Below, one piece after another: positions 45,611-52,313 of a stretch of 64,000 nt of DNA; within the stretch, counting starts at the first letter, position 1, and every line of letters starts with the position of its first letter. This DNA is from an uncultured Spartobacteria bacterium. GTDB taxonomy: Bacteria; Verrucomicrobiota; Verrucomicrobiia; Chthoniobacterales; Chthoniobacteraceae. The position numbers and the translations under genes are program-made. The notes beneath the pieces are model-generated. The model saw only the letters and a list, made by a program, of their open reading frames with translations. It did no database searches and was not told where the DNA came from. The DNA lies in assembly GCA_903901425.1 (NCBI GenBank), contig CAIURC010000207.1, forward strand, positions 62,001-126,000, read 5' to 3'.

Positions 45611-46057
45611 CTAGCCAACCACTGCCACCGAACCACCCAGTTTCTCAATCTGAGTCCGTGCTGCAGCACTAATCTTGGTCACGGAAATCTTCAGAGCCTT
45701 TGTCAGGCTACCGCCGCCCAGAACCTTGACCCCGGCAACATTGCCACGGACCAAACCGGCCGCACGAAGCAGTTCCTCGGTCACTTCGGACCCTGCATCA
45801 AACCCCTCCAGGTCCGAGAGGTTGACCTCCGCATAGCGAACCTGAAACTGGGTGTTATTAAACCCGCGTTTCGGCATCCGCCGAATCAAAGGCATCTGGC
45901 CGCCCTCGAAACCGAGACGAATGCTGCCACCGGAGCGGGCCTTCTGACCCTTGTGACCTTTACCGCTGGTCTTGCCGTGCCCGCTGCTTTCGCCGCAGCC
46001 GAGCCGCTTGACCCGGTGCTTGGCCCCCGGGCGAGGCTTCAAATTTGTCAGATCCAT
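45611..46057 (-). CDS. rplO: Large-subunit ribosomal protein uL15
   Basis: The 148-residue L15 starts 'MDLTNLKPRPGAKHRVKRLG' and has the Gly-rich 'GESSGHGKTSGKGHKGQKARSG' arm and 'PLIRRMPKRGFNN'. It begins 4 bp after rpsE: the L30 gene (rpmD) that usually lies between is absent. Confidence 0.97.
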   Translation of the reverse strand: MDLTNLKPRPGAKHRVKRLGCGESSGHGKTSGKGHKGQKARSGGSIRLGFEGGQMPLIRRMPKRGFNNTQFQVRYAEVNLSDLEGFDAGSEVTEELLRAAGLVRGNVAGVKVLGGGSLTKALKISVTKISAAARTQIEKLGGSVAVVG

Positions 46058-46061
46058 AAAA

Positions 46062-46610
46062 TTAGCTAGCTACTGCCTCGGTGCGCGGGGCAATCCCACG
46101 TGTCTTGAAGATCTCCTCCCTGCGCCGGAGTTGCCCGAGCGCCTCGATCGTGGCCTTCACCACATTGGCGTGGTTGCTTGAACCAAGCGACTTCGCAAGG
46201 ACATCTTTGATTCCGACCGCCTCAATCACGGCACGCACGCCGCCGCCGGCAATCACCCCCGTCCCGGGGGAGGCAGGCCGAAGAAGCACCCGCCCGCCAC
46301 CGAACTCACCAACCACCTCATGCGGAATGGTGTTGTTCACGGTGGAAATCTTTACGAGGGCCTTCCGAGCGGACTCCGAAGCCTTCCGAATCGCCTCGGA
46401 GACTTCGTTTGCCTTCCCGAACCCGCAACCGACTTTACCGGCGCGATCCCCGGAAACAATCAGAGCACTGAAACTAAAACGCCGCCCACCCTTAACCACC
46501 TTGGCGCACCGATTAATAAACACCACCTTCTCCGTGAGATCGGACTGCTCCCTCTCCGGCTTGGGTTTCTCGCCGCGCCTAGGTCTGTTGCCTTGTTGAA
46601 CTGAAGCCAT
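46062..46610 (-). CDS. rpsE: Small-subunit ribosomal protein uS5
   Basis: The 182-residue S5 has a basic N-terminus ('[20 protein letters not shown]'), the dsRNA-binding-like core '[21 protein letters not shown]', and the C-terminal domain '[18 protein letters not shown]'. It is involved in translational accuracy. The ATG at 46610 lies 7 bp after rplR; the longer open frame runs back into rplR and is not used. Confidence 0.97.
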
Positions 46611-46617
46611 ATGTTTT

Positions 46618-46977
46618 TTAGAAATCCAAACCGCCTTCGCGCGCAGCATCCGCCAACGCCTTGACCTTGCCGTGATAAATGTAACCACCGCGGTCGAAAA
46701 CCACGGCACTCACATTCGCTTTCTTTGCCCGCTCCGCCACCAACTTCCCAACCTTCAAAGCCGTTTGAACATTGGGCCGACTCGATGCGTCGGAGCGGAA
46801 CGCTTCCTCGGTGGTGGACACAGATGCCACGGTGCGGCGCTCCTCGTCGTTCACGACCTGCGCGTAAATATGTTGGCCAGAAAAATGCACGGAAAGACGG
46901 GGCCGGGTTCCGGTACCGGAAACCTTCTTCCGGATGCGCTCGTGGCGCAACTTCAATGGGTTTGTTCGAGAAGCCAT
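46618..46977 (-). CDS. rplR: Large-subunit ribosomal protein uL18
   Basis: The 119-residue 5S rRNA-binding protein starts '[19 protein letters not shown]' and has '[18 protein letters not shown]' and '[27 protein letters not shown]'. The ATG at 46977 fits the family; a TTG two codons earlier is the alternative. It follows rplF within a few bases. Confidence 0.97.
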
Positions 46978-46985
46978 ATTCAAAA

Positions 46986-47525
46986 CTATTGCACTGTCTT
47001 GCCTTCTTTCCGGACGATCTGCTCGCCGGCATAACGCACTCCCTTGCCCTTGTACGGCTCAGGCGGGTAATACGCACGGATGTCAGCAGCCACTTGGCCC
47101 ACCAACTGCCGGTCAATCCCCTCAATTTTTACCTTCGTGTTTTCAGCCACGGTCACCTTGATTCCAGCGGGAATCGGGAAAAGGATGTCGTGGGAGAAGC
47201 CAAGATTCAGCTTCAAAGTGCTCCCCTGTACAGCCGCCTTGAAACCCACCCCCTGGATTTCAAGATCCTTAACGAAACCGGTGTTCACCCCGGTAACCAT
47301 GTTGTTGACTAGAGCCCTCGAAAGACCGTGCAATGCACGCACCGAGCGGTCCTCGCCACTGCGGATCAACTCAACCCGGCTGCCCTCCACCTTACCACTG
47401 ATCGCCTTGGGCAACTGCCAGCCGAGTTTGCCCTTCGGGCCCTCGACACTGACAGCACCAGAGGCGCTGATCGTCAACTTCACTTTCTCAGGAAGCTCAA
47501 TAGCCTTTTTTCCGATTCGCGACAT
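46986..47525 (-). CDS. rplF: Large-subunit ribosomal protein uL6
   Basis: The 179-residue L6 starts '[15 protein letters not shown]' and ends with the signature '[25 protein letters not shown]'. It has two duplicated folds and sits near the factor-binding site of the 50S subunit. It lies between rpsH and rplR in the conserved order. Confidence 0.97.
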
Positions 47526-47547
47526 AGAATCCTAATTCTGTCTCCGT

Positions 47548-47940
47548 TTACCAAACCAACGCAAGAACTTCCCCACCAACGTTCTGCTTCTTTGCCTCGC
47601 GGCCCGTCAGAACCCCTTTCGGCGTCGAAAGGATTGAAATCCCCAAACCACCGAGAACCCTGGGAATCTCGGTCGCCCCCACATATTTCCTGAGCCCGGG
47701 CTTGCTCACCCGCTTCAAGCCGGTGATCGCAGACTTCCGGTTAACAACCTTGTTGGTGACCTTGATCTGAGGGAAAGCACCGGTGCTGTCCAACTCGTAG
47801 TCTGCAATGTACCCCTCTTTCTTCAGGATCTGGGCGATCTGCGCCTTGATCTTCGAGTAGGGAACCAGCAACTCACGGTGCTGCGAGGCGTTCCTCAGCC
47901 GCGTGAGAAAATCGGCAATCGGGTCTGAAATGTTACTCAT
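47548..47940 (-). CDS. rpsH: Small-subunit ribosomal protein uS8
   Basis: The 130-residue S8 starts 'MSNISDPIADFLTRLRNA' and ends 'GVLTGREAKKQNVGGEVLALVW', the classic C-terminal motif. It binds 16S helix 21 and, in E. coli, represses the spc operon. It follows rplE directly: the S14 gene usually between them is missing, leaving a 34-bp gap. Confidence 0.97.
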   Translation of the reverse strand: MSNISDPIADFLTRLRNASQHRELLVPYSKIKAQIAQILKKEGYIADYELDSTGAFPQIKVTNKVVNRKSAITGLKRVSKPGLRKYVGATEIPRVLGGLGISILSTPKGVLTGREAKKQNVGGEVLALVW

Positions 47941-47974
47941 ATCTTACTTTGTCGTTTCAACTCCACTCTGCACC

Positions 47975-48547
47975 TTAAGCAGCCTTCTCGGCCGTGCGCT
48001 TTGCCCGGTCTGAGAACGGCATCCCGAGCTCCGACAGCAACGACTTCGCCTCAGCGTTTGTCGTGGCAGTGGTGACGATGGTCACGTCAAACCCGATGTT
48101 CCTCTTGATCTTATCCAACTCGACCTCAGGAAAAATCGACTGGTCCGTAACTCCCAACGTATAGTTCCCTTGGCCGTCGAAGGCACGTCCGGACACACCA
48201 CGAAAATCGCGAATCCTTGGCAACGCCATCTTAATCAAACGTTCCAAAAACTCAAACATCGGCTCCCCCCGAAGAGTCACCTTGGCGCCAATCGCCTGCT
48301 CCTTCCGAAGCTTGAAATTGGCGATGCTCTTCTTCGAGCGGGTCTCCGCAGGCTTCTGGCCCGTGATCAGAGCCAACTCAGCCTTGGCATCCTCCAGAGC
48401 CTGCTTCCCATCCGCCTGGGATCCAATACAGGTGTTGACGACCACCTTGGTGACCTTCGGTACCTGATGGACATTCTTATACCCGTGCTTCTCCACCAGC
48501 GCTGGAATAACGCGGGTTTTGTAGTGATTCAAAAGTTCAGCAGCCAT
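47975..48547 (-). CDS. rplE: Large-subunit ribosomal protein uL5
   Basis: The 190-residue 5S rRNA-binding protein has 'NVHQVPKVTKVVVNTCIGSQ', 'LITGQKPAETRSKKSIANFKLR' and 'NYTLGVTDQSIFPEV', all family hallmarks. It forms part of the central protuberance and bridges to S13. It starts 6 bp after rplX. Confidence 0.97.
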   Translation of the reverse strand: MAAELLNHYKTRVIPALVEKHGYKNVHQVPKVTKVVVNTCIGSQADGKQALEDAKAELALITGQKPAETRSKKSIANFKLRKEQAIGAKVTLRGEPMFEFLERLIKMALPRIRDFRGVSGRAFDGQGNYTLGVTDQSIFPEVELDKIKRNIGFDVTIVTTATTNAEAKSLLSELGMPFSDRAKRTAEKAA

Positions 48548-50853: not shown

Positions 50854-51195
50854 TTAAGCCTTCACGCCATCACTCAAAACAATCCGGATGTGACTGGTCC
50901 GCTTTCGGATCGGTCCGGCACTGCCGCGCGCCTTTGGTTGGAACCGCTTAAACGTCGGCCCCTCACCCACGGTTGCCTCGAGGACCACCAGGTTCTCTGC
51001 CCGCAGATTGTTGTTATTCTCGGCATTCGCAACAGCGCTCTTCAGCGTCTTGGCGACCAAACCGGCAGCCTTTTTCGGGCTAAAGGTCACCACATCCAAG
51101 GCCGCTGAAACGCTCAAGCCTTGGATCTCGCGCGTCACCTCCCGCGCCTTGAAGGCGGAGATACGCGCACCTTTGTAAATTGATTTAATCTGCAT
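50854..51195 (-). CDS. rplV: Large-subunit ribosomal protein uL22
   Basis: The 113-residue L22 has '[21 protein letters not shown]', '[23 protein letters not shown]' and the tunnel-loop region ending '[12 protein letters not shown]'. The ATG at 51195 gives the family length; the open frame runs upstream into the inserted gene. A 41-bp gap separates it from that gene. Confidence 0.97.
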
Positions 51196-51236: not shown

Positions 51237-52016
51237 TTAACGTCTTGCATCGACCCGGACCGAGTCCCCCTCTGTGATGCTGCCCTCCTGCAACCCGGCT
51301 AAACCGGAATTGTCTAGAAGAAGCGCACACACCCGAGCCCTTACATCCACAGCCCGGGCCCTGCCTATTACTTTGTCGCCACGCTCTATGACAAATGGTG
51401 TTCCGACCCGCACTTGGCTCTCAGCGCCAGTTGAGGCAACAATGACGCCTAAACCTCTCTCAATACTGAGAACAACAGCGCGGCTGCCTGCACCGGCACT
51501 ACCAGCGAACTCCAGTGGAAGTGAGCCCGCCCCCAGCGAACGATGCGCCGACTTTAACTGGCTCCTGACCACCACTGCCGCCTCAGCATCCGAGGATTCG
51601 AGTACCGGAAGGTAAACGGCCAGAGCATCCACCAAGGATTGCAACGAGTCCCTGAGCGCCTTTCTTTGAGCCTCACTATGCCGGAGATCATTCACTGCAC
51701 TGACCAACCGCTGTTCAACCAGAGACTCACCAGCTCCGCTGCCTCCCATCCCCAAGGCTTCTAACCGGAGACGGAGTGCTTCAATCTGACGAGCGAAAAC
51801 CTCGTTTTGTGCCGCCAGAGCAACGTGCTCCCGTTCAAGCGCCTCGGACCTAGACTCCACATCTAGAACCGCCGCAGCGGCCCCTGGCCCCTGCCGACTC
51901 GAAACTAACGTGACATCTTTAAAAGAACTATCCCCGCGCGCCGCCGGACTTGCCGACGCTAAACACGCAACCAGAAGACTGAAGCTGAGACGGAAGCCAC
52001 TGAAAGACCCGCTCAT
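51237..52016 (-). CDS. Exported coiled-coil protein with C-terminal beta domain, inserted in the S10 operon
   Basis: This 259-residue protein is not ribosomal. Residues 1-28 form a signal peptide ('LSFSLLVACLASASPAARG'). Residues 52-88 and about 100-131 are heptad-patterned coiled coil ('REHVALAAQNEVFARQIEAL'). Residues 178-257 form a compact beta domain: 'VVLSIERGLGVIVAS', 'QVRVGTPFVIERGDKVIG' and 'DSVRVDAR', a layout like the periplasmic MreC beta domain. I infer a periplasmic or envelope-anchored scaffold, but no family is certain. It lies 18 bp after rpsS and 41 bp before rplV, in the same direction, so it must be made with the ribosomal proteins unless it has its own control. No strong ribosome site precedes its ATG. 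Confidence 0.85.
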   Translation of the reverse strand: MSGSFSGFRLSFSLLVACLASASPAARGDSSFKDVTLVSSRQGPGAAAAVLDVESRSEALEREHVALAAQNEVFARQIEALRLRLEALGMGGSGAGESLVEQRLVSAVNDLRHSEAQRKALRDSLQSLVDALAVYLPVLESSDAEAAVVVRSQLKSAHRSLGAGSLPLEFAGSAGAGSRAVVLSIERGLGVIVASTGAESQVRVGTPFVIERGDKVIGRARAVDVRARVCALLLDNSGLAGLQEGSITEGDSVRVDARR

Positions 52017-52034: not shown

Positions 52035-52313
52035 CTACTTCGACACCTTCGCGGTGTGTGAACCGTGCTTCTTGAAAATCCGAGTCGGAGAAAATTCCCC
52101 GAGTTTATGACCAACCATGTTTTCTGTGACAAAAACAGAGTTAAAGATCTTGCCGTTGTGAACAAGAAAAGTGTGGCCAACGAACTCAGGGGTGATTGTG
52201 GACCTGCGGGACCAGGTCTTAATGGGCTTTTTCACCCCTGCATCGTTGAGCTTATCGATCTTCTCGAACAAGTGCTGTTCGACAAACGGACCCTTCTTAA
52301 GTGAGCGACCCAT
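52035..52313 (-). CDS. rpsS: Small-subunit ribosomal protein uS19
   Basis: The 92-residue S19 starts '[19 protein letters not shown]' and contains '[23 protein letters not shown]' and '[12 protein letters not shown]'. It sits in the 30S head next to S13. It is the last ribosomal gene before the inserted coiled-coil gene. Confidence 0.97.

Follow-up and report, generated by a model that had tools for sequence, protein, structure and literature searches.

In its canonical form, which we used for comparison, the S10 operon has the gene order rpsJ-rplC-rplD-rplW-rplB-rpsS / rplV-rpsC-rplP-rpmC-rpsQ, and the junction between rpsS and rplV is one of the most conserved in bacteria. Among described envelope proteins, MreC (PF04085) combines a membrane-bound or exported N-terminus with a coiled coil and, behind the coil, two beta-barrel domains. 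The C-terminal domain of the flagellar protein FlgT (PF16538; Vibrio FlgT 3w1e and the LPHT ring 8z5n) has been reported to share the barrel topology of periplasmic adaptor proteins (review, PMC4446572).

The window (the whole 64,000-nucleotide stretch of DNA analyzed here) preserves the canonical S10 order, with the genes running rpsL-rpsG-fusA-rpsJ-rplC-rplD-rplW-rplB-rpsS-[slot gene]-rplV-rpsC-rplP and onward, but one more gene, whose product appears to be exported, separates rpsS from rplV. This slot gene is an intact open reading frame (ORF) of 259 aa with an ATG start at positions 51237 to 52016 of the minus strand, identified by ORF calling and by homologues in the same slot of other genomes. 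Upstream, rpsS (S19; 52035 to 52313, minus strand) ends at 52035, 18 bp from the slot gene; downstream, rplV (L22; 50854 to 51195, minus strand) starts with an ATG at 51195 after a gap of 41 bp. All three genes lie on one strand, and the ORF coordinates confirm the arrangement and the two gaps given in an earlier note on this DNA. No sigma-70-like promoter was found near the slot gene, no Rfam family of RNA leaders matched there, and the single terminator-like match around it (1.8 expected from shuffled sequence) was not convincing. By position, that is, the same slot and strand across the clade with vertical inheritance, the slot gene belongs to the S10 operon. Farther along the ribosomal gene cluster (45611 to 48547), rpsN (S14) is absent from its usual place between rplE and rpsH, and rpmD (L30) from its usual place between rpsE and rplO.

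Two parts of the slot protein are conserved, a putative signal peptide and a C-terminal barrel of six strands, while the coiled coil between them varies from long to absent. The three parts named in the earlier note (signal peptide, coiled coil, and beta domain) are supported by AlphaFold2 (AF2) models of two members, the first as a signal-peptide-like N-terminus. The window protein starts with a hydrophobic stretch that has an AxA-like site for a putative cleavage, followed by the motif SSFK at residues 30 to 33 (51918 to 52016, minus strand); this assignment draws on hydrophobicity and motif statistics. A hydrophobic N-terminus (nine-residue window above 2.0, a measure of hydrophobicity and not the output of a signal-peptide predictor) is found in 65 of 71 distinct slot proteins, and the AF2 model of the Chthoniobacter flavus Ellin428 orthologue (L060) has a helix at residues 7 to 20. 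Export by the Sec route is putative, as judged from the N-terminal sequence. The short post-signal motif [SRDGEC]S[LFV][TSKPNDQL] occurs in 48 of the 71 proteins, compared with a rate of 0.16 in shuffled segments, the same data having served both to find and to test it.

In the AF2 model of the window protein (mean pLDDT, 75), the helical region covers residues 46 to 160 or so (helices 46 to 87, 97 to 139, and 144 to 160; 51537 to 51881, minus strand), with pLDDT values of about 70 to 92 over most of it. Two of its helices are of similar length, with a packing that is predicted only (pTM, 0.37). The barrel follows at residues 177 to 259 (51237 to 51488, minus strand), accompanied by one short helix. 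The C. flavus orthologue (pLDDT, 80) is predicted to have a longer first helix (residues 33 to 105) and the same barrel. Since the pTM values of the models are 0.36 to 0.37, the arrangement of coil and barrel relative to each other is a prediction and not an established structure. The best structural match of the barrel is the FlgT C-terminal domain (8z5n, Z score of 11.6 to 11.7; 3w1e, Z score of 11.3), with a root mean square deviation of 1.8 to 1.9 over 75 to 77 residues at 12 to 21% identity. F1-type ATPase subunits, with their N-terminal barrel, also rank among the best matches. In line with the structural matches, FlgT_C was the most frequent Pfam family among 21 members, matching 13 of them at an E value of ≤1 (best, 6e-5; the curated cut-off of PF16538 is 27 bits). 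The window protein itself matched neither FlgT_C nor PF04085 at an E value of ≤1. Sequence searches of solved structures returned only chance-level coiled-coil matches (best E value, 0.013), and a viral structure library yielded only FlgT_C-like phage barrels.

The slot protein thus shares the six-stranded barrel fold with FlgT, but it has a long helical stalk where FlgT has other domains, and it shows no dependence on flagella. It also resembles periplasmic adaptors (AcrA/MexA/HlyD) in combining a helical stalk with a barrel; unlike in those proteins, the coil is dispensable and no efflux genes adjoin, and no lipoyl/HlyD family appeared among the Pfam matches listed (25 of 74 families). The same genome also encodes a 262-aa paralogue (locus L163, 1078 to 1866; G000:C203) with a single membrane anchor, a long coil, and the same C-terminal barrel (98% in hhalign). 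It differs from the slot protein in its locus, in its longer stalk, and in persisting in lineages without the slot gene. The paralogue adjoins a gene resembling a glycosyltransferase.

A single-sequence search of the window's genome and its relatives, 57 genomes in all, gave matches in 39. The loci of 29 relatives were examined, and every one of them has the match precisely at the rpsS-rplV junction. Within the Chthoniobacterales, 45 of 52 junctions carry a slot homologue, a count that includes all junctions read in the order, also those of genomes negative in the single-sequence search. The apparent absence of the gene from genus g4 proved to be a sensitivity artefact of that search: reading the junctions revealed short, diverged homologues of 160 to 192 aa, and a wider profile scores three further forms of this genus at E values of 1e-13 to 3e-15. 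One f6 genome has a diverged form of 242 aa at the junction. The junctions of family f5 measure only 9 to 28 bp and contain no gene, and those of small f7 genomes measure 148 to 313 bp, also without a gene.

To locate junctions elsewhere, we searched 150 genomes from the class and 115 from the phylum with rpsS and rplV fused into one query. The junctions read contain slot homologues in 16 families of the class (f14, f15, f16, f17, f18, f22, f25, f27, f30, f31, f35, f37, f39, f40, f44, and f50) and in four families of other Verrucomicrobiota classes (f62, f65, f67, and f74). In genus g31 of family f15, all five genomes read have a form of 235 to 240 aa, and the spacings in further genomes of the genus fit the same form; this genus is presumably Akkermansia-like, so the slot gene probably extends to the gut bacterium Akkermansia. 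With a profile built from the homologues of the order, the slot ORFs of other families and classes are recovered at E values from 1e-113 to about 1e-4, and a single match below 0.01 was seen among shuffled copies, so that homology of these ORFs goes beyond chance. The earlier note had pointed to the same insertion in a clade as the observation to look for; it is present in the order, in the class, and in other classes of the phylum, a wider distribution than expected. Two families (f53 and f69; L150 to L157) have an S10 operon that is broken precisely between rpsS and rplV. In three of the four rplV sides read (L151, L153, and L155), a slot ORF remains just upstream of rplV, at distances of 78, 117, and 15 bp and with order-profile E values of 1e-4, 4e-12, and 1e-6, respectively; none was seen in the fourth (L157). 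Across the junctions, the spacing between slot ORF and rplV is often under 40 bp.

The presence and absence of the slot gene require 8 changes on a ribosomal protein tree (S19, L22, S3, and L16 from 115 loci, one row each), compared with a mean of 31.7 after shuffling. The tree alone cannot separate gain from loss, but one old gain followed by repeated losses is the simplest reading because the homologues share one slot. The presence pattern fits an ancient, vertically inherited gene with a single origin and repeated losses. A clade of 20 rows accounts for one loss, and the others fall in family f20, in f5, in part of f13, in the small f7 genomes, and in some families of other classes; about eight losses, one of them affecting a large clade of the class, show that the gene is dispensable on an evolutionary time scale. 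Relocation in the loss lineages was considered and rejected: searches of their genomes found no slot orthologue elsewhere and returned only the membrane-anchored paralogue family of L163. The slot protein tree and the ribosomal tree have 27 of 55 splits in common, and their distances are correlated (Mantel r of 0.41; null maximum, 0.345).

The slot protein is under purifying selection. Seven close pairs gave dN/dS ratios of 0.05 to 0.16 (Nei-Gojobori; some dS values are near saturation), although the protein's rate of evolution is about 2.3 times that of its ribosomal neighbors. The earlier note had allowed for a recent neutral insertion, absent in close relatives; this is rejected by the homologues in the same slot of those relatives, by the wide distribution, and by the dN/dS ratios. 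Its related worry about poor expression is partly justified for the window genome. The terminal branch of the window copy (1.2) is the fifth longest of 58, and the ribosomal branch of the same genome is ordinary. Measured against ribosomal genes, the codon adaptation of the window copy is 0.598, whereas the ribosomal genes themselves reach 0.72 to 0.82 and 26 further long ORFs in the window 0.713 ± 0.045, with no value below that of the slot gene (the comparison was made within the 64-kb window, and some of the 26 ORFs may not be genes). No other gene in the comparison has so low a codon adaptation, which argues against very high expression in the window genome; expression or constraint of the slot gene may be reduced there, while the family as a whole is conserved.

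We propose that the slot gene encodes an exported envelope protein with a dosage that follows the S10 operon. This is the most likely reading, to which we give an even chance of being right, with export, cotranscription, an envelope role, and a partner all inferred. The location just before rplV would tie the dosage of the protein to ribosome synthesis and, via the linked spc genes, to that of SecY. In the envelope, the protein would probably act as a structural element or an adaptor, with the barrel docking on a partner and the conserved short motif behind the signal peptide as a possible second contact. The helical stalk could set the reach or the oligomeric state, and it can shorten or vanish.

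The main rival reading is that a useful envelope gene unrelated to the ribosome was captured once and has stayed because its removal would put the operon at risk, in which case coexpression would carry no meaning. The roughly eight losses, the range of protein lengths from 558 to 111 aa with a coil that varies strongly or is absent, and the low codon adaptation in the window genome all agree with such a passenger. However, the protein itself is under purifying selection, the ORF remains by rplV even where the operon has been broken, and the junctions of loss lineages are only 1 to 43 bp, which means that the gene can be removed. We regard this rival as rather unlikely, and as the strongest competitor to the dosage-linked envelope protein.

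The earlier note had described the beta domain as MreC-like and suggested a tie between envelope growth and ribosome synthesis. On the corresponding rival reading, the slot protein would be a divergent MreC paralogue, a part of the elongasome that couples wall elongation to ribosome production. A beta barrel behind a coil is indeed common to both, and the structural comparison with MreC gave a divided answer: MreC structures are among the top 50 Foldseek matches of the C. flavus orthologue (2j5u at an E value of 3.3e-4, 6zm0, and 7eft) but not among the top 50 of the window model. The domain is a fold-level neighbor of MreC in one orthologue, with the FlgT C-terminal domain as the better match. 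By sequence, an MreC identity was rejected. PF04085 matched weakly in 4 of 21 members (best E value, 0.026), and when profiles were compared with hhalign, 15 MreC proteins from the order reached a probability of 10 to 20% over 34 columns, against 98% for the L163 family as the positive control. Both AF2 models have a single barrel of about 80 residues behind the helices, where MreC has two, and the mini forms of the slot protein lack the coil. In addition, a genuine mreB-mreC-mreD locus is found elsewhere in the genome (G000:C182), apart from the slot gene, and each of the 22 relatives searched for MreC has it, even where the slot gene is missing. An MreC paralogue is accordingly improbable.

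A still more doubtful alternative places the function in the nascent chain: the emerging signal peptide would bring S10-spc polysomes to the Sec translocon, or gate the translation of rplV and later genes, so that ribosomal protein synthesis senses export capacity and any later role of the protein is secondary. The signal peptide is kept even in the mini forms, and the short spacing to rplV would allow translational coupling, yet the purifying selection and the conservation of a folded barrel speak for a role of the mature protein, and the gene has been lost in many lineages. A flagellar ring component like FlgT, suggested by the best fold match and the most frequent Pfam match, is effectively refuted because the slot gene is present in genomes without the P-ring gene: FlgI occurs in only 12 of 38 relatives without correlation to the slot gene, which many FlgI-negative genomes carry (e.g., G003, G004, G007, and C. 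flavus G018).

The S10 operon and the barrel fold are known; what is added here is a long-conserved extra member of the operon and a protein family on that fold. Much of a phylum has long kept the gene of an apparently exported protein in a nearly invariant junction. Either the building of the envelope is coupled to ribosome synthesis here, or an essential operon carries a frozen passenger, and these readings differ in what they predict. The family is under selection and unstudied; its members occur in gut bacteria that resemble Akkermansia and in relatives of Verrucomicrobium, for which genetic tools exist. For Verrucomicrobium spinosum, which probably carries the gene as its relatives do, a published transposon map of essential genes lists 100 essential proteins of unknown function (PMC12283558). 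We found no description of an insert in the S10 operon of Verrucomicrobiota in the open-access literature covered by the search and no informative mention of the slot protein in a paper on the Akkermansia outer membrane proteome. The published PVC signature protein CT421.2, a small protein of about 53 to 80 aa (PMC3444138), is distinct from the slot protein.

Several junctions depart from the common form. Mini forms of 111 to 124 aa occur in family f21 and in part of f24 (L185, L187, L190, and L195 to L198), with a signal peptide and a barrel but no coil (E values of 2e-7 to 5e-11). They look as if the slot gene shrinks before it is lost, and other f24 genomes keep only 26 to 218 bp. One f4 genome (G038; L043 and L133) has a 552-bp gap between rpsS and rplV, and related genomes carry the slot gene (L011 and L026); no recognizable homologue or remnant of it was detected in this gap, nor any remnant in the small f7 genomes. 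In an f16 genome (G105; L137), the slot ORF follows rpsS, the next long ORF is DUF1080-like, and the stretch contains no rplV, which reflects a rearrangement or a misassembly. In six slot proteins (L101, L103, L107, L109, L111, and L136), the post-signal motif is CSL[NKQSD], which places a cysteine close to where the signal peptide ends; these proteins from several families are possible lipoprotein forms, with a lipobox that is not typical. The longest form, 558 aa in family f39 (L135, G180), has an extension of roughly 300 residues rich in Pro, Ala, Ser, and Thr between the signal peptide and the coil.
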